From positions 23,740,755-23,804,754 of the forward strand of contig NC_030851.1 in the NCBI RefSeq assembly GCF_000208745.1: a stretch of 64,000 nucleotides of DNA, read 5' to 3'. Shown piece after piece: positions 1,453-64,000 of this stretch (the stretch's first letter is position 1; every line of letters starts with the position of its first letter). The position numbers were made by a program, and so were the translations under genes. Source of the DNA: Theobroma cacao. Its lineage: Eukaryota; Streptophyta; Magnoliopsida; Malvales; Malvaceae. The notes beneath the pieces were generated by a model. It had not been told where the DNA came from and searched no databases. It worked only from the letters and a program-made list of their open reading frames with translations.

Positions 1453-3556
1453 ATACTGGCCTCGTATAATGGAAAATTCCTTCTCAAGGATGTTCATGCA
1501 CTCTTGAAACACTTAATCACTTATTGGCTCTTTAACCTTCCGAGCATATCATTCCAAAAAGGCATGCACTTATTCACCAAGATATTTAAATGCCTGCTCA
1601 TCTATTCATACTTCAATTTATCTTCATGGGTTTCTAGCATGCCATATAATTGGCCTTCTGTTGTTACTAACCCTCTTCATTCAACTAAGTCAAGACGAGA
1701 TTTGTAAATCTTCATAACAATACTTTATATTAACTCATTTGCTATGCTACCCTTGTAATCCTTGATTCACAATTTCATCACTTGGTATTGACATCTCTTG
1801 TCGATGTCCCATACCTTCATCTAACCTTTCACTTATTTTTTTTTCCTTAGCCTTTAACAAGGCTTAACCTCTTGTCTTTTTTATTTCTTAGGATTTGACT
1901 TTAGTCAACATGTTATTCATTTTAATACTTCACATGGTAGTTTATCTCAATGTAGCTGTCTCGAGAACTCTTTAACTTCTCTTTCTTTTACTTACATGCC
2001 TATATATAAGGCATTAAAGAAACCTTTCAATTCATTCATATAAACACTCTTCCAATGTAGTTAAAACTCCAAATAACAAAGCTCAACATCAATACCAATA
2101 ACCATAATTCAACTTGTGAGTTTCATCTTTATGCCACTCACAGTTTGCTCGTGCTTCCTAGCCATGAGGGGTTCTTAAAGTGACAACGTTGGGTAGTCAG
2201 CGCTGTGATGTTGCAACTGCTGGAATTTACTTTATCAAAGCAATTCTATTTTTCTTTTAAGGCTACTACACTAACTATTCTCAATCGCATGGCTTTCCTT
2301 TAAGCCTATACCACAATTTCCATAAGTATGTGTATCTTCTCTTTGCTTATCATATGCACTAGACCAAATTAATACTTTCAACTCATATCATCTTTTGACG
2401 TTTATCATCAATCATGAAATCCCACCTTAAGGCATCTTTTCTATATGGTGTAATGAATTCACAATACATATATCACCATACGCATAATTACTCATTATTT
2501 ATGGCATTCCACAAATTTGTTACTATCCATAACTAATTATCTTTCTTGTTTCGTAACTCAAATAGTTTATTGACATTTTAGTATAAACAACCATAAAAAT
2601 AGTTCATCTTTCTCCACATTCTACATCCATAATTTTTCATTAAATCTAGAATTCATCTTTCCCAAGTTCCATAATTTACCTCCAATGGGCTATATTTGTG
2701 TCAGATTATCATTTTATAATGTCAGAGCACCATGTGCCTCCATTCTTATCGCCAATCATACTTTATAAGAAACAATTAAAAGTCTTTCATACCCTTTTTT
2801 TCTTTTGTGCATTGCACAACTCTTTAAGACCTACCTACACACTACAGCCACTTGACCAACGAATCATCCTTTTTGACCCTTTTTCCTATTTATCCAACAT
2901 GTGCCCCTTAACATTCTCATCCATAGGAATATCGAGGTCACAATTCTCGACTCAATCACATTAATCATTCAAAGTGTCATCTATATTCTCATTAATTTCG
3001 CTCATATTCTTCCAAATTGTAACTGCAATTGAGATTTTAATTTTTCACAATCTCACTATTAATTGTTAATCGTTGGTCAGGTCTTCTAGTTGCTTGTACC
3101 ACTAATGACTTTCTACGTCTACCTTTAATAATTATCTGAGGTGACCAGCCACACCTCTAAGGTGAATATTCTTCCTCAATAATCATATTGCTAGTCCACC
3201 TCTGTCATACCAAAAGATTACCATACGCACTAAGTCATTTAAATAGCTACTTCATAATCCATTTGAGTCACACGAAAATAAAAGCCAAACTCTTAAGTCC
3301 TTTGTACAGATAACTACTACTACTTCATTTACACCACACCTGCCTAGACTTAAGGTAATACAAAGTTCAACGAAAATACTAAACGTCCTTAGGATCTTCA
3401 TCGCGTTGATCCGAACACATCGACGGATCCTCCTTCAGGATCCTCTTCCATCCCCTAGGGTTTTTCCATATTATCCTTAATCCAAACTTGTTGTATTCTT
3501 ATGCATTCCTCCCTACTGACAGATGCAGCTCCTATTCCACATCCAGGAGGAAAGTG
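1453..3556 (-). mobile_element. Non-coding internal region of a minus-strand LTR element
   Basis: This lies downstream, on the minus strand, of the PBS at 4098-4111 and the ORF at 3557-3880, so it is read as internal sequence of that element. I see no recognisable pol, protease or integrase motif; the ORFs are short and unconserved. The plus strand is pyrimidine-rich. No 3' LTR for this element is visible; the family-C LTR to the left ends at 1452. Confidence 0.4.
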
Positions 3557-3880
3557 TCAGACGACAGATACCTTCCTAGGACGAATATCTCCCTTTGCAA
3601 TTGCCTCTTTTGTCTTTTTCTTATGCCATTCCTCTAGTAATTTGTTCATGCATCCTCGAATACCAGAGTTGTCCTTATTTGCAAGGCTTTCAATACTTTT
3701 GAGACCTTTCCCTTTGCGAAACATTATTTTTACTCCCGGTGGAATCCGTTCATCAGGAAGTTGTAGTGAATTACTAGCCGCGCTTTCAACCTTTAACGAA
3801 TAACGACTCCGAGCAGTGGAGTCCATCGATCCCTCTTCAGCATTAGGGCACCTTTCCCGTTTCTTCTTGCTGCCGCTCAT
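3557..3880 (-). CDS. Unknown ORF at the gag position of an LTR element (107 aa)
   Basis: The start codon is about 217 nt downstream of the PBS at 4098-4111, close to the spacing (about 199 nt) between PBS and gag start in the gypsy element at 38771-38982. The protein begins MSGSKKKRERC and is basic at both ends, with a KKKRER run at residues 4-9 and a lysine-rich segment near residues 85-95. A proline- and glycine-containing stretch (PDERIPPGVK) lies near residues 42-51. After the stop the same frame continues with PPGCGIGAASVS before the next stop, so the original reading frame may have been longer and interrupted by one nonsense change. I do not recognise the family: there is no CCHC knuckle and no retroviral gag core I can name. 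It could be a diverged gag, a captured fragment, or the ORF of a non-autonomous element. Confidence 0.4.
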   Translation of the reverse strand: MSGSKKKRERCPNAEEGSMDSTARSRYSLKVESAASNSLQLPDERIPPGVKIMFRKGKGLKSIESLANKDNSGIRGCMNKLLEEWHKKKTKEAIAKGDIRPRKVSVV

Positions 3881-4097
3881 GTTGTGTCATAGGGACATTT
3901 CAAACCTGTACACAAACATGCATTAATTCTTAACCTTTTAGTACTAAGACAAAGGTAGGCTTCTAGATGAAAAAGAGTTCATGTAGCCTCCTTCTCTTGA
4001 TTCGTGTTGCGCACCCATAAACCAAGAACAGGACTCTACACTAACTCTTACAACTCTGCTGATAGATACAGGAAATCCTAGGACTCATTTAAACCTA
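3881..4097 (-). other. Leader between PBS and first ORF
   Basis: About 217 nt of untranslated leader on the minus strand between the PBS and the ORF at 3557-3880. No other feature is seen. Confidence 0.5.
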
Positions 4098-4111
4098 GAG
4101 CTCTGATACCA
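4098..4111 (-). promoter_or_regulatory. Primer-binding site, tRNA-iMet
   Basis: On the minus strand the site reads TGGTATCAGAGCTC, the standard plant initiator-methionine tRNA complement. It lies 4 nt from the inner end of the LTR at 4116 (LTR end ...GACA, then 4 nt, then PBS). This fixes 4116-5311 as the 5' LTR of a minus-strand element. Confidence 0.9.
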
Positions 4112-4115
4112 CCTT

Positions 4116-5311
4116 TGTCATAGCCTAATTTTCGAGCCATGATCGGCGTAAGGGCCCAATGGGCACAGCACGCTAAGCCCAAGCAAGCCTATTCATTAAA
4201 TTCTATTTCATCATTCTCACCATCATTTCTAACCACAATCTTTATTCTCAACAATACGTATTTCGATAATAAACAAGGTGACCAAATATTTATATTGGTA
4301 CTAACCTAAAATACTGTCATTCATTGCCATCTCATAATGGCATCGTCATATCACATATACATCTATTGTTTATAGCCTAAATCTTAGCGATTTACATTGA
4401 GTGTAAATCCACATGCAAAACTCTTGACGACCAGCGAAGTGACTTGGATGAGGGCACAGCTACCGAATGCCATATACCTACTAAAGGGTGAATACGAGTG
4501 GTCTCCTTAATCTTGGTCCCAACTAGCTACGAATCGGTATTTGTTAAATCTTTATCCAACTCAAACTTCCTTCAATGGCCCAAATGGGGCGGTGGGGCTT
4601 CGTTGGAACCTTGGTAGCTTTGAAAGTGAATTCCTTTCCAAGAATTTTCAAGCTATTATGGAAGCTCTCTCTCTCTAAAACACCTAGTTAGGGAGAGAAA
4701 GTATGGGAGTAAGACTTTTTAAGGGTTTTAAGGTGAGAGAGTGAAAGAGCTGAAAAAACCTATAACAATGTGTGTAAAAGCATGAAATTTAAGGTTAGCT
4801 TGAAAGGGTGATGGAAGCTTTGAGAGAAGCTTTCATGGAGGATGAAAGAAATGTGAGATGGGAGGAAAAAGAAGAAGAAACTGCTAGAAAAATGAGGAAG
4901 CTGCTGGAGATTAGATATTTATATCTAAAGTTTATCCAATTTCTCATGTAAATTACCAAAATGCCTTTAACCTTGTGGCTTTGTTTTCTTCCCATCCTTT
5001 GTGTAACCTTTTTACTCTTTTGACATTGAGACAAAGTCCATAATAGTCTAAAAATACTTGGGTTCAAGAAAACGTAAAAATTTAGACTTGAGATGCAAAA
5101 TGACAATTTTGCCCCTACTATGGAAATTTGTAGTATTTCTATCTTCTTCATTCATTTTACCATCATTCATCTATTCCTTAGGCCTACTTAGACCTTAATA
5201 ACATTAGAAAGTTACTTCTAGGAACTTAGCATGAAAAATGATGAAATTACCCCTGGTTTGTGTTATTGCATCTACTTCTAGTTACGTGTCTATGGAGGTT
5301 TAGGTTTCACA
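4116..5311 (-). mobile_element. 5' LTR of family A lacking both LTR introns (spliced form)
   Basis: The LTR runs on the minus strand from 5311 (TGTGAAACC) to 4116 (...GACA) and is 1196 bp. It aligns with the family-A LTRs at 26368, 32967, 55342, 60884 and 62137 but lacks two segments. The first joins ACCAAG to GTTCC at 4609/4610, where the other copies have GTGAGT...AG. The second joins AATACCG to ATT at 4534/4535, where they have GTGAGTG...TTTTCAG. The block between the junctions is 75 nt (4535-4609), as in four other copies. Exon 1 plus U3 (702 bp) and the last exon (419 bp) match the other copies in length, so nothing but the introns is missing. A TATA-like box lies near 4910-4920. Precise loss of two GT-AG segments is the mark of reverse transcription of spliced RNA. 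Confidence 0.85.
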
Positions 5312-5349
5312 ATACGATGGTACTAGGTTTCACACAGAACTTAAATAGT

Positions 5350-10105: not shown

Positions 10106-12741
10106 TGTCATGACCCAAATTCGAGGGTCATGACCGGTGCACAAGCTCAGCAGCCAAGCCTACTAGACTTGAGTAGGTCTTAAAGTTCATATTCAAACAT
10201 ACATAGGCGAAGGGATTCGATCATCAAATATTCATAATAAATTTGAATAAAATACAATGTCCCTGACTTAATTTCCATACAAATAGTAATAGGGCCATAC
10301 ATTAGCCATCCAAACAAGTTTATACATAGTAATCCGTACTACACAATATAACAAGGCAAAATCAGTCTTGTTGCATTAAAATCAATTCACATGCAAATGG
10401 GAAATTTTCAAGATTTATCATGCCATATAATCACATATTATAATCATAATATTTCTATTGCATATACATATGCTTAAGCATATATCAATTAATATACCAC
10501 CACACCTCATCCAGCCTATGTACATCATCACTGGCATGTGCACTACCCACTCTGCACATGCACAGTTGTAATTATCACGACATCATCATTACCGGCATGT
10601 GCACTACCCACTCCACACATGCATGGTTGTAATTATCACGACAGCATCATTACCGGCATGTGTACTGCCCACTCCGCACATGCACGGTTGTAATTATCAC
10701 GACAGCATCATTACCGGCATGCGCATTGCCCACTCCACACCTGCACGATTGCATTTGTCACACAATGGTACCATTTATGGCATAGTATATATATATATAT
10801 CATTATACAGAAACATATGAATTCATCACACTATCCATTTCATAACATAAAAACATTTCATAAGGGCTTGTTCCCGTGCAAGTTTTTGAAGAAAAACCAA
10901 TAAAAATGTTTTAGAGGATTCAATCAAACATAAACATGCATATACCAAGACATTTTAATGCAAGTTCACTCACCTGGCAACAATGAGATTTTAAATCGCT
11001 ATTTATTCGAAGGTGTCTCTAACTATTTTCACTGGTAGGTCGCTCGTTATTTACTCCAGCATGCCACCACAGTTCTCTAACTTTATCTTTGCACTTCCTA
11101 GCAATATTACGAACTCAATATATTTAATTACATACGTATACGGGCAACACCTCAATCAATTAATCCTTACTCAAATTTATATTTTCATCCTATCATGAAA
11201 TCATCTTCAATTAACTCACATCTTAATACATTTTTACCAAAATTACTTACATCCATTGCTTACGAAATTCCTTAGATTATATCACTGGCAACTTATTTAT
11301 GATGTCACGTGCCTACTTCAACCTTTCTAAATAATTTTTGCCTAAATCCATCTTATATTTCCACACATAATCCACATATATGGCAACAACAATTATTCTC
11401 ACTTTCACTCAATTATTTCCTAGTTTACACACATTGTTATCTACCTAACTTTCAATACTTTGTTTCTTAATCCTCCATCCACAATATTCCTTTTTTTATT
11501 TCTTTCAAACAACATGCCATACAATCTTAACAATTTTCAACTAGCTTAGGCAAATAAATCCTTTCAACAACCATAGTTCCTCACAATATTCCACTAACTG
11601 TAGGCTTTAAAACATAGTGTTAATCTTACCGTTTTCCTTTTCCACTTTCAATCCTTCATGTACCCATGGGTTTATTAGCTTACATGTTACCAATTTTTCT
11701 CCAATGAAGCCAATCTTTGCTGCCACTAGACATTTCTCTAAGTCACTAACTCATTTTCAAATACTACTCAAGCCAAAAATAAGAATTCTTACCGTTCCTT
11801 GCTTGAATCACCAAAACCAAGCTTTTTCTTCCTTTCTCTCTTTTTCTTTCTTCTCCTCTTAGGGTTTTGGTGTGCTGGAAATTGGGGTTAAAGGCTGCAA
11901 AGTTAATGGTCAAGAAGTTTGGAGAAGAAAGGAAAAGAAAACATAGAAAGGAAAGTGAAGAAAACTTGATTTCATGGTGGATAAAGAGAAAATGGCATGG
12001 AAGCTTCAAGAATGGCATGGAGCATGGATGAAGAAGAAGAAAAATCTGCTGGGGGAAAGGATAAGGTCAATCTTTGCCTAAAAAAATCAGAGTCAAAGCT
12101 TCCTTTGGAAGCTTTGACCAAACTTTACATAAAATTACTGTTTTGCCCTATTTTTGTTTCCTTCCATTTTATTTTAGTCCTCCCAACACTCCTTTAACTC
12201 CAATTTCCTTCTATTACCTTCTCCTATACATGCACAAACAAAGTATGAAGTTTGTACTCCAATGCGGTGTTCCCATAATATTTAAAATATTTATTTGCCC
12301 TCGCTATCTTTACTTAATAAAGACACGTGGCCCCATTAACGTCATTTTTCTCCAAAAATCTTCTCATTCTTCTTTTCCCCCACTTAGATTGACCATATAC
12401 TCCTTCTTCATGGAAAATTTTGACACTGAATAAAATATTAATATTTTAATAATATTTTATTAATAAAATATTATTTTATTTCAAAAATTTCCTCTTGTCT
12501 CCTCTTGTCACCTTGGTACCCAAAATACCTTATTATGCCTCAATTGACTTCCGAATCACTTTTTATCTTGTAAATTCTTCTCCAATAAAAATATCACTAT
12601 TTTATTATTATTTTCTCGTGTGCGAAATATTTTATCCCAAACTATTCCTTTCATCTTTCATCATTTCTAAACATTATAATTAACGTCAATTGACATTCAA
12701 GAAGCTTTATTAGTCACCATATCAAAGTACCGGGTATTACA
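10106..12741 (-). mobile_element. Mosaic LTR built of family D, A and B segments
   Basis: The element starts TGTCATGACC at 10106 and ends GGGTATTACA at 12741. 10106 to about 10365 aligns with the start of the family-D LTR at 38987. About 10370-10975 aligns with intron 2 of the family-A LTR (compare 27055-27750). About 10985-12741 aligns with family B (compare 36400-37846), including the GGTCGCTCGTTATTT block near 11036. The A-to-B change falls at the splice-donor position (donor G at 10973). No exact target-site duplication is seen (TGGTT on the left, GGATT on the right). Confidence 0.65.
10531..10774. repeat. 61-bp tandem repeat, four copies
   Basis: Units starting with YGGCATGTGC begin at 10531, 10592, 10653 and 10714, an exact 61-bp period, with the last unit diverging at its end. 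Each carries ATTATCACGACA and ACCCACTC words. An AT dinucleotide run follows at about 10785-10800. The ORF reading through it is a by-product of the 61-bp period. Confidence 0.9.
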
Positions 12742-12797
12742 GGATTAACGTATAAGATCATGTAAATAGGCTTACTTGGGCTTGGTGGGTTGATCCC
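12742..12797 (+). mobile_element. Family-A LTR end fragment, left of the family-B insertion
   Basis: GGCTTACTTGGGC and GGTGGGTTGATCCCATTGG align with the 3' end of the plus-orientation family-A LTR at 38028-38060. The sequence resumes after the family-B insertion at 19499-19538 and ends CTGTGACA. The rest of this LTR is not visible to the left. Confidence 0.7.
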
Positions 12798-13849
12798 ATT
12801 GGTGTAAAACCCCATACTTTGATATGGTGACTAATAAAGCTTATCGGATGCGAATTGAGGTCAATTATAATATTTAAAAGTGATGAAAGATGAAAGGAAT
12901 AGTTTAGGATAAAATATTCCGCACGCGAGGAAATAACAATAAAATAATAATGTTTTATCAGAGGAGAATTTGTGAGATAAAAGGTGATTCGGAAGTCAAT
13001 TGAGGCATAATAAGGTATTTTGGGTACCAAGGAGACAAGAAGAAATTTTTGAAATAAAATAATATTTTATTAATAAAATAATGTTAAAATATTAATATTT
13101 AATCGGATGTCGAAATCAGTCATGAAGAAGGATCATATGGTTGATCCAAGTGGGGGAGAAGAAATACAAATAAATTTTTGGAGATGAGCGAAAAAAGTGA
13201 AATACGCGTGTTTTGCGAAGTCGAGCCAACGTGGATAAGTAAATATTTAAATATTATGGTAATACCGCGTTGAAGTGCAATTATGATATTTTGGTGGTAC
13301 ACGTACAGAGGAAGGAAGATAGATGAAAATTGAAATTTTTAGACGTATCAAAATGATTTAATTTAAAATATAAAGGTTGAAGGATTATGTAGTGGAATTA
13401 AATGAAAGAAATAAAATAAACAAATAGTAAAATAATAATACAAGTATATATATAAATAAATAAAGACCAGTATGGGCAGCCGCCCATGTGGTCAATAAAA
13501 AGGGTCAAAAACTCTTTATTTTATATGACGAAAGGGGGGCCGGCCATGTGGAACAAGGTGAAAAAGGAAAGAAAGATAGGGGGTCGACCAAATTGGAAAA
13601 CAAATGGAAAAAATATATATAAATAAGTAAACAAATAAAGTAAAAAAGAAGAAAGAGAGAAGTTGGTTAGTTGAAGAGAAGAAAAAGAAACAAGAAGAAG
13701 GCGTCGGGCATAAGAGAGAAAAAGGAGAGCAAAAAGAGCAAAAAGAAAACAAGAGAAAGTCGAGCGGTGAGAAAGAAAGGGAGAGGAAAATGAGCTGAGT
13801 TGAGGGGGCGGTTTTGCTGCCATTTAGGGAGGAAAGGAGAGCTATTTTT

Positions 13850-26367: not shown

Positions 26368-26793
26368 TGTCATGACCCAATTTTCGAGCCGTGACTGACG
26401 CATGGACCCAATGGGCATTAGCCCACCAAGCCCAAGCAAGCCTACTTATATAATCTTGCTCATCATTCCATCAACGATTCTTAAAGTCACCTTTCATACT
26501 TCTAATCTATAAGAACCTAATTAATATGCTATAGCAATCAAAACTGCATTTCACATTAACCCAAATAATGTTAACCATTACCACTCATGGTGGCTTACCA
26601 ATCAAAATATACATATATGCTTGAAGGCTTGCATTTTAGTTCTTTACATCACATGTACGTATTTACAAACAAATTGACTCTAGGCCTCTAGTGGGATGAC
26701 CAAGGTGAAGGGACGGCTACTCAATGCCAACATACTTGCCAAAGAGACGAAACTACATGGGCACCTCGGCCTAGGTTCCAACTGTCTCCTAAT

Positions 26794-27749
26794 CTGAAAA
26801 CATGAAGTTGAAAATAGTGAGTACAAACTCAGTGAGTGAACATAAGAAGGGAACAAGCAACGATAAGGAAAGTTGATAATCATGATGCACTTGTTTAAAA
26901 ACAATGCAACTTAGTTCAAGTTCTTATTAAAGTTCCTCCATTTAACCTTGGGTTGTAAAATCATTTAATGATGAAGGAACCATGCTCGGAATGAAATTGA
27001 AAAAAGAGGAAATTTCCAACAATCATCCAAGCAATGCAACATAAACAACATGTTTCTCGCTGCAATAAAATCAATTTGCAAGTCAATGGGAAATTTTCAA
27101 GATTCATCATACCATATAATCATATATTATAATCATGATCTTTTTATTGCATATACATATACTTAAGCATATACTAATTCTATACCACCCCATCTCACCC
27201 AGCCCATGTGCATCCCCCCATATCGTGCACATAGCCGGAGACCCCATCTCACCCAGCTCATGCATCTCCTCACATCGTGCACATACCCGAAGTCATCGTG
27301 TGCATCCCCCTACATCGTGCACATAGTCGGAGTCATCGTGTGCATCCCCCCACATCGTGCACAGTTGATGCCATCGTGTGCATCCCCCCGCATCATGCAC
27401 AGTTAATGCCATCATGTGCATCCCCCCACATCATGCATACGAGCAGTATCACCATCCATCTCCCTCACCACCATCATCATCGGCAAGTGCACACTCACTC
27501 CTAGCATGCACGGTTGCATTTGTCACACAATGGTACCATTTATGACATAGTATATATATATATATATATATATCAACATTATATAGAAACATATGAATTC
27601 ATCACACAATCCATTTCGAAACATAAAAACATTTCACAAGGGCTGGTTCTCATGCAAGTTTTGAAGAAAGAACCAAGTAAAACGTTTTAAGGGATTCACT
27701 CAAACATATATGTGTATATCCCAAAACCTTTTAATGCAAGTTCACTCAC
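26794..27749 (-). other. Predicted LTR intron 2 of family A
   Basis: Donor CG|GTGAGTGAAC at 27749 and acceptor ATGTTTTCAG at 26794 on the minus strand (956 nt). Both edges coincide with the junction at 4534/4535 in the intron-less copy. Confidence 0.8.
27190..27480. repeat. Degenerate tandem repeat around CATCGTGTGCATCCCCCC
   Basis: Six to seven units of about 36-42 bp with CCCCCCACATCGTGCACA and ATCGTGTGCATCC words lie inside intron 2. A TA run follows at about 27548-27572. The overlapping ORFs at 27135-27504 only read through the repeat. Confidence 0.85.
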
Positions 27750-27823
27750 CGATACTTGTTGAACCTTTAATCGACTCTAACTTCCGTAATGGTTCAAATG
27801 GGGCTGAGGGGCCTTGTTGGAAC

Positions 27824-28067
27824 CTATCACGCACAAAAACATCATAGCCAATCCAATCTACATTAATATCATTCCAAAAGTTGTTTCCCAATTCAAGCTT
27901 CAATAGCCCTTCATATCTACCTTCTAATTACCATTTGATTGGCTATTCTGTTTCTCTACTTTAGTAACACTAGAAATAGATAAACAATTTTAGCAAATAA
28001 CACAACTCATAACTCTAATTACTAGCCATCATCAATAACTTAAAACAAATCCTAATTCATCACTCAC
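27824..28067 (-). other. Predicted LTR intron 1 of family A
   Basis: Donor AAG|GTGAGTG at 28067 and acceptor GTGATAG at 27824 on the minus strand (244 nt). It is precisely absent from the copy at 4116-5311. Confidence 0.85.
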
Positions 28068-29004
28068 CTTGGTGGATGGTAATGAAATTTCTTCCTAAGA
28101 GTCCTCAAGCTATCATGAAACCTCTCTTTCTCTCTTTACAAAGTTCAGCTGGTGAGAGAAAGTATTGAAGAAAGACTTTTAAGGGTTTGTTTAAGGTGAA
28201 GGAGTAAAAGAGTATGAAAAACCCTACAACAGGGTGTGTAAAGCACTAAAATTGAGGTTAGTTTGAGAGAGTGATGGAAGCTTGAGAGAAACTTTCATGG
28301 AAGAGGAGAAAAACGTGAGATGGGAAGAGGAAGAAGAAGAAGTTGCTAGAGAAATGTGGAAGCTACTAGAAAAGATGAGATATTTATAGTTAAAGCTTAT
28401 CTAATTTCTCATGCAATTACAATAATGCCATTAACAAGGCCACTTGTCTTCCTTCTTTTCTTGTGCAATCTTTTTACTCTTTTGACACTAGGAAAAGGTC
28501 CAAAATCCTCTAAAAAAGGTCCCTTAAGTAGCCCCTAAAAGTCCTAGCTTCAAAAATCCCCTAAACTTGTTATTTGTGGAAAGTACGGTGGGGGCCGCGG
28601 CTCTCAATTTCCAGCGTCGCGACTCTCAAATGTTTCGTCCAAATCTATTCTTTTGACGTAGTACTTTGACTTAGACAAGGATTTTGACCACATTCCCCCT
28701 AAAACTGGGCAAAATGGTAAACATCAAAGTTGTATCCCTGCCTCTTAGCTTTCTAATGGTATAAAAATCATGTTATTTGGACTTCTGTAGTTGGAGATAT
28801 GCTTGAAAAATCAAAATATATGCAAATAGAGCAAGAACCTAGTATGCACGTTTTTTCACCGATTAAAATTATTTTTTTAATCCTACTCCTATAATGACAT
28901 AAAATAATTATAAGTAACATAAAACTAGCATCATTAGCTCAAATTAAACCTTTAAACATAAGTTCTACCTCGAGTAAAGCATTTATGAAGGTCGAGGTTT
29001 CACA

Positions 29005-32966: not shown

Positions 32967-33355
32967 TGTGAGACCTTGACCTTTATAAACTCGTAAAGGG
33001 TAGTATACGCAATATCTTTGATCAGGGGTAATTTCGTCATTTCCTTAGTAAGCCCATAAAAGTAAGTTTTAAACAATATTATGGCCTAAGTAGGCCTAAG
33101 GCATAAATGAATGGTGAAATTAAGGGTAAAATGGAAAGGAAACCAAAATTTTGATGATTTTCACGATAAGGGCAAAATGGTCATTTTTCACCTCGAGTTA
33201 AAATTTTAAGTTTTCATGAACCCGAGCATGTCTAGACCATTATGGACCTTGTCCCAGTGTCAAAAGAGCAAAATGATTGCATAAAAGATTGAAGGAGAAT
33301 AAGCTAAATTGTGGAGGGGTAATTTGGTAATTTAAGTGAAATGGATAAGTTTGGC

Positions 33356-33364
33356 TATAAAATA
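33356..33364 (+). promoter_or_regulatory. LTR TATA box
   Basis: TATAAAATA lies about 390 bp into the LTR. Counterparts are at 61275-61282 (plus) and 57599-57606 (minus). All lie about 300-320 bp upstream of the intron-1 donor, so transcription would start before the introns. Confidence 0.7.
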
Positions 33365-33665
33365 TCTTGAATTTCCAGCAACTTGTCTTCTTCTCCTTCT
33401 TCCCTCTCACATTTCTTTAAAACCTCCATGGAAGCTTGATATGGAGCTTGCATAATTTTTTCTCTCTCTAGCTCTAGTTTTCATACCTTTGAGCCCTTTT
33501 GACTAGAACCCTTGTATTCTTCCACTCTCTCTCCTTAAAACCCTTGAAAAAATCATATTTCCATACTTTCTCTCACTAGCTAGGCATTTTAGAGAGAGAA
33601 AGAGAGAATTACCCTATTTGTGTGGAAGCTATTGGAAGAGAATTTGACTACAAAGGAACCCTAGG

Positions 33666-33882
33666 GTGAGTGATGAACTAAGCTTGATTTTTAGCTGTGA
33701 ATAATGGCTAGTAATTGGGATTATGAGCTGTTTTATTGTTGAGTATGTTCATTACTTTTTTAGTGATTAAGATAGTGAACATAGATAGCAATTTAATGTG
33801 ACAATTGAAAGCTAGCTAAGAGATAGCTTTTAGGGTTCATAGTGTGTGAATTGACCTATTGCTTATGTTAATGTGATGGCAG
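33666..33882 (+). other. Predicted LTR intron 1 of family A
   Basis: Donor CCTAGG|GTGAGTGATG and acceptor GTGATGGCAG|GTTC (217 nt). A branch-site-like TTGAC and TTAAT lie 15-35 nt before the acceptor. Confidence 0.8.
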
Positions 33883-33957
33883 GTTCTAAGGAAGCCTCAT
33901 CATTCCATTTGGACAATTAGGGGAATTAGAGTTAGCGAAAGGCTCAACAATATACAG

Positions 33958-35143
33958 GTGAGTGGACTTGCATTTCAAACTTGTTTTGGGGAATGTGAAT
34001 GATTTTATCTAACTTGACTTTGAAAATGTGCCTTGGGAACAAGCCTTTGGTGAAGTGATTTTATATTGTGGAAATGTGCTATACAATGTGCTATGTGTTA
34101 TCAAAATATGATAGTATGCATGATATGCATTGGGCGCTTCTTTATATGTTGATGTGGACACGGCTATGTGCGAGTAGGAGTGAACATAAGCCGTTGTTGA
34201 CCCGGCTATGTGCAAGTGGGAGTGCGCATAAGCCGTTGCATATGAGATGATAATGATGGGATGGTGTATATGATGATTGATATATATATATATATATATA
34301 TACATATATGGTATATGGTTGTAAATGCAAAAATGTGAGCATTTGATTTGTTGAAATTTGGGAGTTTGCATGTGTTACATGTTGTTTTTGTTATTTAGCA
34401 GGATGGCTTTGTTTTAAGGGAAAAGGGAACCTTTTTCTTGATGTTCTGATTCTCGCTGCAACAAGAAACTCTAGGGTTTTGAAAGGGTAGGCTGGTCGAA
34501 AACTCGCTACAGCGAGAATCCATTTTCGCTGCAACGACGAAGGTATAGTAGCTTCTCGCTGTAGTGAAAAACTTTCTGTTTTATGACCAAAATCTGGCTA
34601 TAGCGAGATTCAATCTCGTTCCAGAAAAAAACCTTATGTTTTTCACCTCATTTTAATTAATTGTTGCCTTATTTTTCACTTTTTTGCTACCATATTTGAG
34701 TATGGATTTCCAACATTAAGGAGTAAGTGAATAAGCTTAATATGAGGAGGTTTGGTGAGAAACCCTCGGCCAGTCAAGAAACCCTCGGTTAGTTGAGAAT
34801 TTAAATCAAGTGTCGCTGCAACAAAAATTCATTCTCGCTCCAACGTAGCTGCAGCGAGAATGCCTTTCCGCTGCAGCGAGGACCCGTTGTTTATTGACTT
34901 GATTCGCATGAATGCTATTAAAGTTTTCACTCTCCAAATCCTTTATTGAGCGTGGACTTCTTCCAATAAGTGATTTTTCTCATGTGGGGTTTACATGAGG
35001 GGTTTAATAAGTTCAAAAACAAATTGCATTGTTTTGAAAAAGAGTGCATCATGATTTCGTTAAACATTCCTTATGGTATGCTTGTTCCCTTTCTTGTTCA
35101 CTCACTGGGTTTATACTCACTGTTTTCAACTTCATGTTTTCAG
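33958..35143 (+). other. Predicted LTR intron 2 of family A
   Basis: Donor ACAG|GTGAGTGG and acceptor TTCATGTTTTCAG|ATCACG (1186 nt). Confidence 0.8.
34440..34885. repeat. Array of CTCGCTGCAGCGAG palindromes inside intron 2
   Basis: About ten variants of CTCGCTGCAGCGAGAAT occur, such as CGCTGCAACRA and GTAGCTGCAGCGAGAATG. Matching arrays lie at 55975-56455 and 62765-63210. Confidence 0.85.
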
Positions 35144-35268
35144 ATCACGAGGCAGTCAGTAATTAGGACAAGGTGTCCTTGTAGACTTGTATCCATCTTT
35201 TGGTAGATGTCTCGGCATTCAGTAACTGTACATTCGTCCGAGTCCCTCCGCTAAAAGTTAAGTATTAT

Positions 35269-37846
35269 TGTAACGACCCCTCCTCGGTAAATTTGAAATA
35301 CTAAGAATTTCTTATGCATTATAAACACTTCAATTGGTAAACTAATCAAGGTAGATAAAAATTTTCTCTACAAAACAGATCAATAACCTTATTCAAGTCA
35401 ATCATTTGAAATATTGAATTAAAACAATTTTTACATAAAGAAAATTTCGTCGTCAAGATCAATTGACATTTTTCTCAAATCAAACCAATATATTCGGCAA
35501 GCTCCCATGAAATCAAACGTTAATCAAACTCATACGTAAATCACAAATTGCCTTGCACTCAAGGAGTTAAAATTCATTTCATCGTAAAAATAAGAGAGCT
35601 GCAGAAAAACCATTAAATTCCACTTTCACCATGCAAAGAAATATAAATTTAAAAACCCAGAGATGCCACTCTTGAGTAGGGAATGAAAATAAAACCGTGG
35701 TCCCACTACCACGTAATAACATCCGGGAGCCTTGCTCCACTGGATCTCACATGCCATGGCAGTCTCACGATGTTGGCCGACATCGGAGATATTCGACGGT
35801 CGCAACTGTGTAAATCACTAGTGGGCTAGCCATGCATATATACATCACAGGTCGTGGTCCCCACCATGCCTAACCGTCCGTCGGTGACCCAAAGGTTCTC
35901 TAGCTAGAGCTCACTCGTGCACGAGGGTCATACTTAATCGATGTGACATTTGGCCTACTCTCGACGCCCTCGGTTTGTAAAACCATTTTTTTTTAAATCG
36001 TTTTATGTCCTTAAAAACTTGTCTCAAAATTATTTCCAAAGCATTCAACATAGGGTATGATAAAATCTATCATTTTCTCAAAATGAATTTATGCATGAAT
36101 TTCAAAACAATAATTTGCATGGTGGATAAGCAATATAACCATGGATGTACATTGCACAAATATAAGGCACAAATTTTGAGGTAAAACAGTGCGAAGGGCT
36201 TGTTTCCCCATTTTGAAAACACTTACATATAATTTATACATATATATATTCAAAACAATTTTTGTAAATAATTTGCATTCACAATTCCCTAAAATTTCTA
36301 CCAGCACATGCTATCCACAATTTTGCATCTAAAATAAAATATACATACTTTTATACTATTATGAGAATTTTAAAATTGACACCCCCTACTCACCTCACAA
36401 TAGCGGGATGTTACGTCGCTATTAATTCAAAAATGTATCTACTTATTCCTTCTTATCGGTCGCTCGTTATTTCCTCCGACCTGCCACCACAATGTACCAC
36501 CTTTACTCATTTCTCTTAAAAATTGAAACCCATTATATATATATTATTTTATTTTTATTTTATTATATATATATATTTATGCCCCCATTACCTTTCCTTC
36601 ACCCGATCTCTTTCTCACCCTTTTTGCTACAACCTTCATCCTTCCTCTTTCCTCTTTCACTCCCAACGCTGGTAACAAGCTCTCTACTTTCACTCTCACC
36701 ACCGATCACCATAACAGCCTAGCTTCCTCTCTTTTCCTTCCTAAAAATCCAACAGCACAAGGTTGCTCTTTCCTCTAAAAAATCAGCTCCTTTCCCTTTT
36801 TTATTTAGCTCCATAAATGGCTTCCTCTCTGCTCTGTTTCTCCCCTCAAGACCGGTTGCAACCACCCAAGAAATTCTCCCTTCAACCCGTGACACTTTCT
36901 CCTTTCTCTCTCACATTTCGGCTCTTTCTCCCTTTCTCTTTTTCTCCATAAATGGCTAAGGATAAAATGAAAGAGACAAAGAAAAGTTGTATTTGATATG
37001 GCTTCATGGTGGGGCAGCCAATGACAAGTTTCTTGTCAATGTTCCCCTACTCCTTTTTCCTTTCTTCTTCTTTCTTTCTCTCAAAAATCCGGCTACTACT
37101 CCTTTAAATGGCTTTGACTTTTCTTTTGCCTTTCTCTATTTCATCTCTTCTATATCACTTGACCGGTCCCTCTATTTTTTTTTTGTTCTCTTTCCCTTGT
37201 GTTCTTAAGTCAGCCCCTACCATCATTTAACTTAAAAAAAATATATTACATTTTGGCCTCCTTATCCCACACATGGGCGACTGCCCATGTGATCTTTTAT
37301 AATAATTTTTTTTATTATTGTTGTTAGTATTTATTTTATTTCCTTTAATTATTAAAATTTACATGTAAGTCCTCAATTTCATTTTATTTACTACACAACC
37401 TTTCAACTTTCGTATTTTAAAATTTGATCTTTTCGATGCATTTAAAAATTCTAATTTTCATCTATCTCTCTTCCTTTACACGCGTACAATCAGAATATCG
37501 AAATTGCACTTCAAGGCGATGTCACCATAATATTTTAAATATTTACTTACCCGCGCTAATTCGATTTAATAAAATCACGCAGGCACAATTATTATCGTTT
37601 TTCTTCGAAATTGTTTCTTATTTCTTCTCTCCCACTTAGATCAATCATATTATCCTTTTTCATGACTAATTCCAATAATAAATAAAATATTAATATTTTA
37701 ATATTATTTTATTCATAAAATAATATTTTATTTTAAAATATTATTTTCACTCGTAACCGCTTTTTGACCCTTAATTTACATCAAGTGACTCTTCGTTTAA
37801 TCGATAGGGTCTTATTGATGGTTAAACGGGAGTACGGGGTGTTACA
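35269..37846 (-). mobile_element. Solo LTR of family B with target duplication ATTAT
   Basis: Starts TGTAACGACCCC and ends GGGTGTTACA. ATTAT at 35264-35268 and 37847-37851 is an exact duplication. It aligns in reverse with the family-B LTR at 12803-19493, for example the GGTCGCTCGTTATTT block near 36458 and the GGTTCTCTAG...GACG block near 35890. It lacks about 500 bp of the 3' end seen in that copy. CT-rich stretches at 36590-37210 give spurious ORFs. Confidence 0.9.
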
Positions 37847-38100
37847 ATTATTTTGTTGTGTATAGACAAATTTAATGTAAATTGTTAAGATACATGTTGT
37901 AGATAATGTATATACACTTGTTTGGTATGCCAGTATGAGATGGCAATGTGTAGTATTATTTTGATTCTAATTTATAAAATGTGACTTAGCAGTTTATGAT
38001 GGAATGATAAACATGTCAGATTAATAGGCTTGCTTGGGCTTAGTGGATTACATCCATTGGGCCCATGCACCGGTCATGGCCCAAAATTTGGGTCGTGACA

Positions 38101-38771
38101 AAGAGTCTCAAACTCTTGTGCCTTTACATCTGTCACCCTTTCAAGCAAGAAATGATTTAGAAAAGCTTGGACAAATTCCTCCCATGTTATTGGAGATGAC
38201 CCTGATGATTTATTTCTGCTAAGTGTAAAAAACCATATCCTAGCCATATCTTTCAATCTAAAACCCACCAATTCCACTGGCCGATGTGTGGAGCATCCCA
38301 AAGCAAAACAAATGCATTCCATGTCTTTCAAAAATCTCTGCGTATCTTCCTCCGCATTTGAACCTATAAATGATGGGGGCTTTAACTTCATAAAATTTAC
38401 TAAAGTAACCTCAATAACCCTTCTTGGTGTTCACGCTAAGGCACATAGTCTAGATCTTGTGAACTAGAATCAACCCATTCCTCAGATGGTGCTTCACTTC
38501 TGTTGTGGAAATTAGCAAATTCATGAGCCAAACTTAGCAGCCCTATTGCTAAATCCTTAAAGGTGACACCTCCTTTTATAGGGTGGTCATCCCTGATTCC
38601 CACATTCTGCTCACCGGTGTACGTATAACTTGGTTCCACATTTTGAGTGCATTTTGTTCCTCTACTCCTACCACGACTGCTTGATATGGACACTTGTGGT
38701 TGTTCCATAAGCCCATCTAGGGCATCTTGCTCTCTAGTGGCCCTCGACGCAGCTTTCGTCTTAGGCGGCAT
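38101..38771 (-). pseudogene. Ty3/gypsy gag N-terminal part
   Basis: Two frames read gag from the start codon at 38771. The first (38436-38771, MPPKTKAASRAT...) is a basic N-terminus with SSSRGRSRGTK. The second (to 38101) is the capsid-like core with PPSFIGSNAEEDTQRFL, CSTHRPVELVGFRLKDMA and SGSSPITWEEFVQAFL, typical of plant chromovirus gag. The frame shifts between them at about 38400-38435. The core continues at 32961 after the solo LTR. The start lies about 199 nt from the PBS. Confidence 0.9.
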
Positions 38772-55336: not shown

Positions 55337-55974
55337 TTTTCTGTCACAACCCAAATTTCGGGCCATGAACTGCGCATGGGCCCAATGGACGTAGTCCACT
55401 AAGCCTAAGCAAGCCTATTAATCTGACATGTTTATCATTCCATCATAAACTGCTAAGTCACATTTCATAACTTAGAATCAAAATAATACTACACATTGCC
55501 ATCTCATACTGGCATATCAAAGAAGTGGATATACATTGTCTACAACATGTATCTTAACAATTTACATTAGGTTCGTCTATACACAACAAAATAATACTCG
55601 ACTTCCAGTAGAGGGACTCGGACGAATGTACAGCTACTGAATGTCGAGACACCTACCAAAAGATGGATATAAGTCTACAAGGACACCCCGTCCTAGTTAC
55701 CAGCTGCCTCGTGATTTGAAAACATGAAGTTGAAAACGGTGGGTATAAACCCAGTGAGTGAACAAGGAAGGGAACAAGCATACCATAAGGAATCTTTAAT
55801 GAAATCATGATGCATTCTTTTTCAAAACAATGCAATTTGTTTATGTTCTTATTAAAAACCCCTCATCAAGCCCTTAAATGATTAATCATTTGAAAATCAT
55901 GAACCCATACATAACGAACCATTTGAAGAATGAAAGCTTTAATAATACACAAGCAAGTCAAATACGGTGACGAA

Positions 55975-56455
55975 TCTTCGCTGCAACGAGAATGAATTTT
56001 CATTGCAGTGACGTTGGGATTAAGTTATTAGCCAAATGAGGGTTTCTTAACTGGCCGAGGATTCTCACTAAACCTCCTCATTTTAAACTTAACTCATTTA
56101 GTCCTTAATGTTGGAAGTCCATGCTCTGATATGGTAGCAAAGAAGTGAAAAATAGGGCAACAATTGAACAAGATAGGAGACAAAAACATAAGGTTTTTCG
56201 CTGCAGCGAGATTCAATCTCGCTGCAACAAAATTGTGATCCAGAAACATAATGTTTCTCACTGCAGCGAGATTGAATCTCGCTGTAGAGAAATTGTAACC
56301 CATAAATAGAAAGTTTCTCGATGCAGTGAAAATGAATTTCACTGCAGCGAGAAGCTATTGTGTCATTCTCGTTGCAGCGAGTTTTCGGCCAGCTTACCTG
56401 TCCAAAACCTGAGAGTTTTTCGCTGCAGTGAGAATGATTTTCGTTGCAATGAGAA
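55975..56455. repeat. Array of CTCGCTGCAGCGAG palindromes inside intron 2
   Basis: About twelve variants occur, for example CGCTGCAGCGAGATTGAATCTCGCTG (two palindromes back to back, 56262-56284). The ORFs 56094-56342 and 56098-56586, rich in C-S-E repeats, only read this array. Confidence 0.85.
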
Positions 56456-56694
56456 ACAGGGCACCAATGCAAAATTTGCCCTTCTTTCAAAGGAAAAACC
56501 ACCCTGCTAAAATGTCCAAACCAACATGAAACACATAACAATTTCCCAAGGTTTAACATGTCAAGTTTCACATGCATTACAACCATAAACCATTATCCAT
56601 TAATTTCCTATAACACACATATTTACATATGTATATATGTATACGTATATATCCATCATCATCATACACACCATCTCGTCATCATCATCACCAG

Positions 56695-56770
56695 CTCATG
56701 CGCACTCCCTACTCGCACATGGCTGGGTCATCACCGGGTTATGTGCACTCCCTACTCGCACATAGCTGAG
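56695..56770. repeat. ~42-bp tandem repeat, two copies
   Basis: Two units contain GCACTCCCTACTCGCACATRGCTG. The sister LTR at 62137 has three (63451-63570), and the plus copy at 32967 has two related units in reverse (34160-34235): a minisatellite in intron 2. Confidence 0.8.
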
Positions 56771-58154
56771 TCAATATAATTACACAACATCATATTCAAA
56801 CATATATGTATATCAACATAATGCAGCCACATAGAAATCCATAATAACCACATATATCATAACATAAACCATTTCTCAAGAGCTTGTTCCCAAGGCATTC
56901 ATTTTTTAGAAAAGTTGTATAAAATCATTCAAACACTTTGTACAAAATAATCATATTCCCAAAACAATTTTGATAGGTAGTCCACTCACCGATTGATTGT
57001 AAAGCCTTTAGATGACTCCAATTCCCCTAATTGTCCAAATGAGATGATGGGGCTTCCTTAGAACCTAGGATCACATTAGCATAAGCAATAGGTCAATTCA
57101 CACACTATGAACCCTAAAAGCTATCTCTTAGCTAGCTTTCAATTGCCACATTAAATGGCTATCTATGTTCACTATCTTAATCACTAAAAAGTAATGAACA
57201 TACTCAACAATAAAATAGCTCATACTCTAAATTACCAGCCATTATTCACAGCTAAAAGCCAAGCTTAATTCATCACTTACCCTAGGGCTCCTTTGTAGTC
57301 AAATTCTCTTCCAATTGCTTCCAAATCAATGGGGTAATTCTTTCTTTCTCTTTCTAGAATGCCCAGCTAATGACAAAAAGTATGGAAATAAACTTTACCA
57401 AGGGTTTTGAAGTGAGAGAGTGAAAGAATACTAGGGTTCTAGTCAAAAGGGCTCAAAAGTATGAAAACTAGAGCTAGAGAGAGAAAATTTTGCAAGCTAC
57501 ATATCAAGCTTCCATGGAGGTTTTGAAGAAACGTGAGAGAGAAGAAGAAGAAGAAGACAAGCTGCTAGAAAATGGGAGAAGAAGCTGCCGGAAGAAAGTA
57601 TTTATAGGCCAATCTTATCCATTCCACTTAAAATTACCAAATTGCCCCTTCACCAATTAACTTACTCTCCTCTAATCTTTTAGGCAATCTTTTTGTTCTT
57701 TTGACACTAGGACAAGGTCCATAATGGTCTAGACATACTCGGGTTCATGAAAACATGAAATTTTAACCCAAGGTGAAAAATGACCATTTTGCCCTTATCG
57801 TGAAAATCATCCAAATTTTGGTTTCTTTTCCATTTTACCCCTAATTTCACCATCCATTTATGCCTTAGGCCTACTTAGACCATAATACTATTTAAAAATC
57901 TTACTTTTATGGGCTTACTAAGGAAATGACGAAATTACCCCTGATCAAGGATATCGCGTATACTTCCCTTTACGAGTCTATAAAGGTCAAGGTCTCAGAT
58001 TTTCCTTCTCTATTTTATTTCCCGTTAGGTAGTTTCTTTACATTATTTTATTCCTTTTTTCTGTAGTTGCTTGAGTCTTATTATTTAAAGAGACAAAATG
58101 CTCTTAGTTGATTAAGTGTTTATTGTCTTTTGAGAAAATGTTAAAATATTTTCT

Positions 58155-60883: not shown

Positions 60884-61274
60884 TGTGAGACCTCGACCCC
60901 TATAGGTCCGTAAATAGGGGTAGACGCAATACCCTGAGCTGGGGTAATTTCGTCATTTCTTTAGTGAGCCCCTAGAAGTATGTTTTCAAACATTTTTAAG
61001 GCCTAAGTAGGCCTAAGGTATAAATGAATGATGAAAATAAGGATTAAATGATGAAGGAAATAAAAAAAATGATGATTTCCAAAGTAAGGGCAAAATGGTT
61101 ATTTTTCATCTCGAGTCAAAATTTTAAGTTTTTGTGAACCCGAGTATTTCTAGACTATTATGGACCTTGTCTCAGTGTCAAAAGAGTAAAAAGATTGCAC
61201 CAAAGATTGGTGGAGAACAAGCTAACTTGTTAAGGGCATTTTCGTAATTTAAGTGGAGTTGGATAAGCTTGAGC

Positions 61275-61282
61275 TATAAATA
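61275..61282 (+). promoter_or_regulatory. LTR TATA box
   Basis: TATAAATA at +392 of the LTR, 317 bp before the intron-1 donor; the position is conserved in the other family-A copies. Confidence 0.7.
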
Positions 61283-61598
61283 TCATCTTCTAGCAACTTC
61301 TTTTCACATTTCCAACAGCTTTTTCTTATTCTTCCTTCTTCCTCTTCACGTTTCTTCATCCTCCATGGGAGTTCTCTTAAAGCTCCCATAACTCTCTCAA
61401 GCTAGCTCCACTTTTCATGCTTTTGTGCACCCTTTCATAGAACCTTTGTGCTCTTTCACTCTCTCACTTTAAAACCCTTGAAAAGTCTTACTTCCATATT
61501 CTCTCTTACTAGCTAGGTGTTTTAAAGAGAGAAAGAGGGAGTTTCTATAATAGCTTGAAAATTATTGGATAGAATTTCAAATTTACAAAGCTGCCAAG

Positions 61599-61842
61599 GT
61601 GAGTAGTGAATTAAACTTTATTTTTTTTAGTTGTGGATAATGTCTAGTAATTTGATTTGTGAGTATTTTATTGTTGAGATTGTTTAATCATTTTTAGTGT
61701 TACTAGAGTAGTGCAAATAATAGCCATATAATGGTAGTTGGATGCTAGTAGGAATGACTAGTAGAACTCAATTTAGAAAATAGCTTTAGAATAGAATTAA
61801 TGCCAAGTTGGGTTGATGGTGATGATGCGAATGTTATGATAG
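61599..61842 (+). other. Predicted LTR intron 1 of family A
   Basis: Donor GCCAAG|GTGAGT and acceptor TTATGATAG|GTTCC (244 nt). The flanking exon sequences are almost identical to those joined at 4609/4610. Confidence 0.9.
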
Positions 61843-62764
61843 GTTCCAACGAAGCCCCACCACCCTATTTGGACCATTAACGGAAGTTGGAGTTTAGTAA
61901 AGATTTAACGAATACCGGTGAGTGAACTTGCATTTCAAAATTGTTTTGGGAATGTGAATGTATTTGCACAAAACATTTGAATGATTTTATCCAACTTTTC
62001 CTTAAAAATCTACGTAGGGAACAAGCCTTTGGTGAATGTTTCTATCTTGTGAAAGTGTGCTATATAATAGTTCATGTGCTATCACAATATGTTGATATGT
62101 ATAATATGCATTGGATGTTTTTTTTTATGTGATAATTGTCACGACCCAAATTTTGGGCCATGACCGACGCATGGGCCCAATGGACATAGTCCACTAAGCC
62201 CAAGCAAGCCTATCAATCTAACATGTTCATCATTCCATCATAAACTGCTAAGTCACATTTCATAACTTAGGATCAAAATAATACTACACGTTGCCATTTC
62301 ATACTGGCATACCAAACAAGTGTATATACATTGTCTACAACATGTATCTTAACAATTTACATTAGGTTCATCTATACACAACAAAATAATACTCAACTTC
62401 CAGCGGAGGGACTCGAACGAATGTACAGCTACTGAATGCCGAGGTACCTACCAAAAGATGGATATACGTCTACAAGGACACCTCATCCTAGTTACCAGCT
62501 GCCTCATGATCTGAAAACATGAAGTTGAAAATGGTGAGTATAAACCTAGTGAGTGAATAAGGAAGGGAACAAGCATACCATAAGGAATCTTTAACGAAAT
62601 CATGATGCATTCTTTTCAAAACAATGCAATTTGTTTCTGTTCTTATGAAAAACCCCTCATCAAGCCCTTAAATGATTAATCATTTAAAAATCATGAACCT
62701 ATACATATCGAACCATTTGAAGAATGAAAGCTTCAATGATACGTAAGTAAGTCAAATACGACAA

Positions 62765-63210
62765 TGAATCTTCGCTGCAGCGACGTTGAGATTTGGTTAT
62801 TAGCCGAATGAGGGTTTCTCACTAAACCTCCTCATTTAAAACTTAACTCATTTAATCCTTAATGTTGGAAGTCCAAGCTCCGATATGGTAGAAAAGAAGT
62901 GAAAGATAGGGCAGCAATTGGACAAGATAGGAGACCAAAACAGAAAGTTTTTTGCTGCAACGAGATTGAATCTCGCTGAAGCGAAATTGAGACCTAGAAA
63001 CAGAATGTTTCTCGCTGCAGCAAAATTGTAACCTAGAAACAGAAAGTTTCTCGCTACAACGAGAAGCTACTGTGTCATTCTCGCTGCAGCGAAAATGCAT
63101 CCTCGCTGCAGTGAGTTTTCGACCAACCTACCTTCCAAAATCCAAGATTTTCTCGCTGCAGCGAGAATGATTTTCGCTGCAGTGAGAATGATTTTCGCTG
63201 CAGCGAGAAA
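62765..63210. repeat. Array of CTCGCTGCAGCGAG palindromes inside intron 2
   Basis: About ten variants occur; 63155-63210 holds three close units (TCGCTGCAGCGAGAATGATT). ORFs 62852-63100, 63067-63340 and 63095-63283 are products of the array. Confidence 0.85.
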
Positions 63211-63450
63211 TAGGGCACCAATGCAAAATTTTCCCTTCTTCCAAAGGAAAAACCACCCTACTGAAATGTCTAAACCAAGATGAAACACATAACAATTTCC
63301 CAAGGTTTAACATGTCAAGTTTCACATGCATTACAACCATAAACCATTATCCATTAATTTCCTATAACACACATATTTACATATGTATATATGTATACGT
63401 ATATACCCATCATCATCATACACACCATCCCATCATCATCATCACCAACT

Positions 63451-63570
63451 CATGTGCACTCCCTACTCGCACATGGCTGAGTCATCATCGGGTTATGCGC
63501 ACTCCCTACTTGCACATAACTGGGTCATCCTCGTCTTATGCGCACTCCCTACTTGCACATAGCCGAGTCA
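63451..63570. repeat. ~42-bp tandem repeat, three copies
   Basis: Three units with GCACTCCCTACTYGCACATRRCTGRGTCAT; one more than in the sister LTR at 56695. Confidence 0.8.
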
Positions 63571-63909
63571 ATATAATTACACAACACTATATTCAAACAT
63601 ATATGTATATTAACATAATGCAGCCGCATAGAAATCCATAATAACCACATATCATAACATAAACCATTTCTCAAGAGCTTGTTCCCAAGGCATTCATTTT
63701 TTTAGAAAAGTTGTATAAAATCATTCAAACACTTTGTACAAAACAGTCACATTCCCAAAATGATTTTGATAGGCAGTCCACTCACCGATTTATTGTTGAG
63801 CCTTTAGTTGACTCTAATTCCCCTAATGATCCAATTGGAAGGATGGGACTTCATTAGAACCTAGGATCACATTAGCATAAGCAATAGGTCAATTCACACA
63901 CTATGAACC

Positions 63910-64000
63910 NNNNNNNNNNNNNNNNNNNNNNNNNNNNNNNNNNNNNNNNNNNNNNNNNNNNNNNNNNNNNNNNNNNNNNNNNNNNNNNNNNNNNNNNNNN
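63910..64000. other. Assembly gap
   Basis: A run of 91 N to the window end. Confidence 1.

Follow-up and report, generated by a model that had tools for sequence, protein, structure and literature searches.

Two probable introns in the long terminal repeats of a Theobroma cacao retrotransposon family, and LTR copies that probably descend from spliced RNA

The window, a stretch of 64,000 nucleotides of Theobroma cacao DNA that was analysed as a whole, contains on its minus strand a long terminal repeat (LTR) without two segments found in its relatives, followed by a primer binding site (PBS) and an internal region. The features of this focal element are:

4116..5334, minus strand: focal 5' LTR, lacking both introns; 5334-5312 is an extra 23-nt start of the subfamily
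4916..4923, minus strand: TATAAATA box, exact in 21 of 44 copies examined; transcription would start about 30 nt downstream
4610..4890, minus strand: exon 1, transcribed part, with a putative 5' end
4535..4609, minus strand: exon 2, 75 nt, between both joins
4116..4534, minus strand: exon 3, 419 nt, up to the LTR end, with AATAAA at exon position ~289
4098..4111, minus strand: primer binding site TGGTATCAGAGCTC, four bases past the LTR end
1453..4115, minus strand: internal region of the focal element, 90% identical to copy L050 over 2.66 kb, then interrupted

A first-pass annotation had placed the LTR at 4116..5311. Its end at 4116 was retained, while the true start is at ~5334, 23 nt further out, because the subfamily has a duplicated start. 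A tandem or circular element was considered and rejected, since the presence of internal sequence on both sides of some LTRs is only apparent and is explained by this extra start. Both joins were located where the annotation had put them: exon 1 meets exon 2 at 4610/4609 (CTACCAAG joined to GTTCCAACG), and exon 2 meets exon 3 at 4535/4534 (ATACCG joined to ATTCGTAGC). The PBS reported beside the intron-less LTR was also found, at 4111-4098, and is presumably of the initiator tRNA-Met type. A second LTR of the focal element was not found in the ~19 kb searched. The internal region carries an open reading frame at 3560-3886 (minus strand), also present in L050, for which all three matching proteins are uncharacterised proteins of Theobroma cacao (best identity 63%); a domain scan of one focal-element reading frame gave no match.

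A BLAST comparison with the 64-kb window revealed relatives of this LTR at 26.4-28.5, 33.0-38.1, 55.3-58.0, 60.9-62.1 and 62.1-64.0 kb:

60884..62137, plus strand: intron-bearing LTR, cut in intron 2; intron 1 61599-61842, exon 2 61843-61917
32967..38101, plus strand: intron-bearing solo LTR with target-site duplication AAGAG and a nested insertion; intron 1 33666-33882, exon 2 33883-33957, intron 2 33958-35143
55342..57999, minus strand: intron-bearing solo LTR with target-site duplication GAAAA; intron 1 57280-57065, exon 2 57064-56990, intron 2 56989-55716
26368..28516, minus strand: intron-bearing LTR with its 5' end missing; intron 1 28067-27824, exon 2 27823-27750, intron 2 27749-26794
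62138..64000, minus strand: intron-bearing LTR that continues beyond the window edge; exon 2 63860-63786, intron 2 63785-62511

Donor 1 is visible in four of the five (61599 and 33666 on the plus strand, 57280 and 28067 on the minus strand), the fifth leaving the window, and exon 3 starts at 35144, 55715, 62510 and 26793. The earlier comparison of the focal LTR with five others holds overall; the 60.9 kb copy ends inside intron 2, so its second acceptor is not visible. Relative to these copies the focal LTR does lack exactly two GT-AG segments, but the accompanying description of the segments as bounded by GTGAGT...AG fails for the 55.3-58.0 kb copy, in which donor 1 is GTAAGT and the intron-2 acceptor is CAA. 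The middle exon, described as 75 nt long in the focal LTR and in four relatives, has that length in four of the window copies and is 74 nt in the remaining one (27823-27750). Elsewhere in the window, two nested inverted-repeat pairs of 154 and 155 nt (83-86%) at 12349-13184 resemble a large fold-back, and other retroelement fragments are located at 20154-20837 (plus), 54059-54727 (minus) and 59780-60493 (minus), with reverse transcriptase, Transposase_32/ATHILA-like and retroviral SH3-like domains among the three.

Across the family the LTR is ~2.4-2.6 kb long, and its transcribed part would consist of exon 1 (~280 nt), intron 1 (183-244 nt), exon 2 (~75 nt), intron 2 (~1.0-1.3 kb) and exon 3, which reaches the end. 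The splice sites are conserved and agree with the consensus, with the donor AAG/GTGAGT and acceptors TAG/GT or CAG/AT, and intron 1 is 39% T and 5.5% C. The intron-2 acceptor is not AG in 12 of 53 listed copies and the intron-1 acceptor is not AG in 3 of 50, which indicates that many copies have decayed. The TATA box is near LTR position 388 (exact in 21/44 copies) and AATAAA is near exon-3 position 289 in 12 of the 18 copies checked; by these positions, both introns would lie in the transcribed R region of the LTR. Judging from the DNA, the two segments are probably removed by splicing. A second, diverged type of exon 2 (~75 nt, beginning GTTCCAACGAAACCCCACACC) was seen between the same splice sites in L019, L022-L025, L054 and others.

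Genome-wide searches were carried out on the Theobroma cacao assembly (324.9 Mb in 431 contigs), in which the window spans C2:23740755-23804754. A search with the focal LTR, which favours intron-less copies, gave 40 scored copies, 39 of them others that were read, and the state of intron 1 was assigned in 34 of the 39 (L026, L039, L042, L043 and L045 being left without assignment). Intron 1 is present in 23/39 and lost in 8/39 (L009, L010, L015, L017, L020, L027, L028 and L038); L030 has only its donor side, and in L034 and L041 exon 1 leads to the intron-2 donor. Of this set, L009 and the focal copy have no intron 2. A second search used exons 2 and 3 plus 31 nt of exon 1 as its query, and among its 40 scored copies the focal LTR and L009 alone cross the exon 2-exon 3 join; in the other 38 similarity sets in no more than 1 nt ahead of the first base of exon 3 and no more than 5 nt past it. 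Intron 1 could be scored in 34 of these 40 and is absent from seven and present in 27.

Short patterns spanning the splice junctions extended these counts. The spliced intron-1 pattern had 159 matches in the genome with at most 2 mismatches (control 1), and the retained pattern had 1,999 (control 0). Among 100 spliced-pattern matches listed, 15 read ATTAGG, GTTAGG or TTTAGG and are probably retained, and ~8 are ambiguous; we estimate that some 120-130 copies, ~6%, have a spliced intron 1, a rough figure as the two patterns differ in make-up. All 22 exact matches are true exon 1-exon 2 joins. Twenty loci with the spliced pattern (15 exact, 5 mismatched) were fetched, and every one contained the exon 1-exon 2 join. 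Four of them also lack intron 2 (L083, L084, L098 and L099), representing three insertions with two other exon-3 types; L098 and L099 share a strand at a distance of 5.8 kb, an arrangement expected of the two LTRs of a single element. The spliced intron-2 pattern, which covers one exon-2 type only, gave 3 matches at up to 3 mismatches (control 8), of which the two exact ones are the focal LTR and L009, and the retained intron-2 acceptor of the exon types in the window gave 265 (control 0).

In all, 30 LTRs without intron 1 were read, and 29 of them are joined at exactly the normal donor and acceptor, L020 having a shorter exon 1. Six of the 30 also lack intron 2, corresponding to five insertions if L098 and L099 are one element. 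Scoring of family copies for neither, one or both introns, as had been proposed, was thus run on part of the family and yielded three classes with the same edges: both introns kept, intron 1 lost, and both lost. A copy that keeps intron 1 and lacks intron 2 was not seen, the genome-wide search having covered one exon-2/exon-3 type. Irregular copies were also encountered. L034 (C5:12232561) and L041 (C5:12249097) are without intron 1 and exon 2, so that exon 1 abuts the intron-2 donor (ACCAAG joined to GTGAGTGAACTTGC); splicing of a cryptic or recursive kind may have produced this, or GTGAGT repeats may have mediated a deletion. Exon 1 of L020 (C5:17051637) stops 72 nt early, at position ~630, and runs into exon 2; the break is beside AG/GTGTTT, which may have served as an alternative donor, or the shortening may be a later deletion. 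L027 has a deletion that runs from exon 2 into intron 2.

Probable LTR pairs were assigned from position and strand, with a PBS or purine tract seen for some. In all eight (8/8) the two members share their intron state; the annotation had proposed such a comparison for intron-free elements. L015+L028 and L093+L094 lack intron 1, L098+L099 lack both introns, L034+L041 share the joining of exon 1 to the intron-2 donor, and L016+L021, L019+L024, L029+L032 and L035+L053 keep their introns. K of the probable pairs is 0.053-0.094, whereas random pairs have a median of 0.25. A tree of U3 parts the supposed pair L034/L041.

The recurrence of intron loss was examined on a tree of 72 copies built from the stretch adjoining the join, from which two of 74 rows with exon 1 shorter than 140 nt (L070 and L076) had been dropped, and which was made without L028, L034 and L041. 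Intron-less copies require 12 changes on this tree, at least 6 of them forced by well-supported branches, in a sample enriched for such copies (20 of the 29 intron-less rows had been picked by the spliced pattern) and with a bootstrap that had not settled. The copies that lost both introns need at least five changes. A single clade of intron-less copies was rejected (AU p = 7e-74), so that where the first-pass annotation had seen one intron-free descendant there are many, and not of one clade. A one-clade test on the U3 tree was not relied on, as L028 and other unassigned copies had been labelled as keeping the intron, though L028 lacks intron 1. That intron-less copies never multiply was also considered, and is disfavoured by the grouping of L093/L094 with L096 and of L098/L099 with L100.

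U3, intron 2 and exon 3 give different trees (L009, L017, L038 and others), which means that LTR modules recombine; such recombination can spread one loss, and the number of splicing events is therefore uncertain. One intron-less LTR might on this basis have been made by a single reverse transcription and then spread by template switching or gene conversion. The recombination is real, and the groupings with L096 and L100 resemble intron-1-less lineages with more than one insertion each. We nevertheless consider a single origin improbable: one clade is rejected also for the sequence adjoining the join (p = 0.0006; p = 7e-74), and the copies with both introns lost carry three different exon-3 types. 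A single origin would, moreover, still require splicing and reverse transcription once.

Deletion at the DNA level between short direct repeats, with no splicing involved, is very unlikely to have made the intron-less copies. A 4-bp direct repeat, AGGT, is present at both edges of intron 1, and other deletions are known in the family, in L027, in L020 (72 nt of exon 1) and in L034/L041, where GTGAGT repeats flank the lost part. However, one copy alone contains 228 direct-repeat pairs of at least 4 bp at similar spacing, some of 7 bp, and it is a 4-bp pair that would have been used repeatedly. Deletions are also rare: one of at least 15 nt was found in the first 600 nt of 41 copies, a stretch mostly outside the introns, and elsewhere one each in L020 and L027. 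The edges of intron 2 share at most one base, yet this intron was removed exactly in six LTRs, and microhomology deletion is likewise unlikely in view of the intron state common to both LTRs of probable pairs.

The reverse polarity, in which the intron-less state is ancestral and introns were gained by insertion into an exon, would leave equally clean edges, and an unrooted tree does not prove polarity. It is also very unlikely, as copies up to ~0.4 changes per site apart still have homologous intron sequences, and the intron-less copies are scattered among intron-bearing ones, so that the same introns would have been gained many times at the same base.

The units themselves have the properties of LTR retrotransposons. 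Their ends are of the TG...CA type, and intron-less solo LTRs are flanked by 5-nt target-site duplications in L009 (AAACT), L017 (GTTCC) and L020 (GTCTA), with four of five letters matching in L010; no duplication was seen at intron-less L027. A PBS follows the focal LTR, L015, L016, L019 and L036, and a purine-rich tract precedes L024, L028, L035 and L041. Direct repeats 6-19 kb apart with K of 0.05-0.09 are the probable LTR pairs (n=8). The one whole internal region read, that of L050 (4.45 kb), contains just one sense frame of at least 90 aa, which is 123 aa long; two other internal pieces have short frames, no coding pol was seen in the internal pieces examined, and the family is probably non-autonomous. 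That the unit is instead a three-exon gene, of the host or of class II, together with its processed copies, is scarcely credible: its exon layout is gene-like and the similar Revolver of cereals has been filed as a gene-bearing class II element, but the ends, the duplications at solo copies, the PBS, the purine-rich tract and the direct repeats are those of an LTR element, and the intron-less copies extend upstream past the TATA box, where a processed copy would not reach.

With a probability of about 90%, we therefore read this as a probably non-autonomous LTR family with two spliceosomal introns in its LTR, whose spliced RNA was occasionally copied back, the focal LTR being a daughter of this kind. 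The precise and recurring edges, the target-site duplications, the agreement within pairs and the rejection of one clade, with intron-less copies mixed among the others on the trees, together argue for repeated reverse transcription of spliced RNA, as the annotation had proposed for the focal LTR; this repetition, and the more frequent loss of intron 1 than of intron 2, are well supported by the sequences compared. In the replication of LTR elements, an intron spliced from the 5' R vanishes from both daughter LTRs. The usual template would be genomic RNA with both introns, leaving most copies with their introns, and now and then it would be RNA from which intron 1 or, less often, both introns had been spliced. 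Strong-stop synthesis primed at the PBS would copy the 5' R/U5 in its spliced form, and strand transfer would then leave both daughter LTRs without the intron or introns. Mobilisation would presumably occur in trans. Splicing probably takes out intron 1 first and intron 2 slowly, as losses of intron 1 alone are common and six of six copies without intron 2 also lack intron 1, although four of these six had been picked by means of the spliced intron-1 pattern. A model in which strands transfer early to an unspliced 3' R predicts copies that keep intron 1 and lose intron 2; it was set aside, no such copy having been seen within the searches made.

An element complementary to the intron-2 donor GTGAGTGAAC, GTTCACTCAC, precedes the acceptor by 47-49 nt in 40 of 42 copies, a count inflated by the search pattern; examples in the window are 33958-33967 with 35096-35105 and 56989-56980 with 55763-55754. 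Counted by position, all 10 pairs form in 28 of 40 copies and at least 9 in 37 of 40. Other 10-mers did as well in 2.2% of control trials and other tail sites in 6.5%. When the 1.0-1.4-kb region was folded, which was done without a shuffled control, donor and element paired with a probability of at least 0.86 in 11 of 14 copies and of at most 0.14 in the other three (L046, L070 and the 33.0-kb window copy). Pairing of the donor with an element near the acceptor may slow the splicing of intron 2. All copies are related, and the signal is therefore a lead rather than a proof. A small hairpin, TGAGT...ACTCA, lies after GTTCACTCAC and before acceptor 2; it has a few two-sided changes and several broken pairs, and we make no claim for it.

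The closest layout described elsewhere is that of Revolver in the Triticeae, which is ~3 kb long with a TATA box, exons of 342, 88 and 292 nt, introns of 750 and 1237 nt, AATAAA close to the end and a 139-aa open reading frame, and gives a spliced 728-nt cDNA (PMC2851119). As far as the published text allows the layouts to be compared, Revolver and the cacao LTR are alike in the TATA box, the three exons with two introns, and the AATAAA near the end. They differ in that Revolver is regarded by its authors as gene-bearing, class II-like, with terminal inverted repeats and distinct from LTRs (though with partial, 60%, homology to LARD LTRs), and that it has the 139-aa frame (PMC2851119). The shared three-exon layout suggests that Revolver may be an LTR of the kind found in the cacao family.

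The LARD elements (large retrotransposon derivatives) of barley are non-autonomous, as the cacao family probably is, and also have very long LTRs, but these are ~5 kb against ~2.4-2.6 kb in cacao, and the passages on LARD describe no LTR introns (PMC2851119). Ogre is likewise a plant LTR element whose RNA is partly spliced and whose intron-bearing genomic RNA is kept; its intron, unlike those of the cacao LTR, lies between gag-pro and RT-RH-INT and serves expression (PMC12786077, PMC6317226). EVADE of Arabidopsis (PMC12786077) and Cer1 of C. elegans also produce spliced and unspliced RNA from one LTR element, but there splicing yields subgenomic mRNAs, and the passages on them describe no removal from the LTR such as that proposed for cacao. 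Penelope-like elements likewise keep introns through retrotransposition, but they are not LTR retrotransposons and have another priming mechanism (PMC3846280). Ogre and EVADE are the only notable intron-bearing plant LTR elements named in the relevant part of a 2025 review (PMC12786077), and in a paper on centromeric retrotransposons a term search met no mention of introns or splicing. Phrases for LTR introns, searched in the indexed open-licence literature, led to no description of such a case, the matches that were read concerning a vector leader and a bacterial ltrB gene.

Taken together, these observations permit a broader reading, which is possible but which we put forward tentatively and regard as rather doubtful. 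Large plant LTRs of this type would be gene-like units with two introns in R, in which the intron-2 donor GUGAGUGAAC is masked by pairing with the conserved GUUCACUCAC, found ~48 nt ahead of the acceptor of that intron. The element itself would thereby set the share of unspliced genomic RNA, a retrovirus-like retention switch within the LTR; the trait would be old, and Revolver of cereals would represent the LTR of one such element, sharing its three exons. If this is true, the scattered intron-less LTRs preserve, like fossils, the occasions on which the switch did not hold.

Passage through reverse transcription should strip an element of its introns. The first-pass annotation understated the case, and the comparison of copies gives good support to a family that keeps two introns in most of its copies while its spliced RNA was copied back many times. 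With two introns kept in well over a thousand copies, unspliced RNA would regularly have been the template. The intron-less LTRs would record the failures, and the genome thus provides a measure, by intron and by subfamily, of the frequency with which spliced RNA was copied. LTR introns would also serve as a marker for template switching and for the inheritance of R/U5, and Revolver may find a new explanation in them. The cacao family would offer a model in plants for a problem known from retroviruses, that of how genomic RNA escapes splicing.
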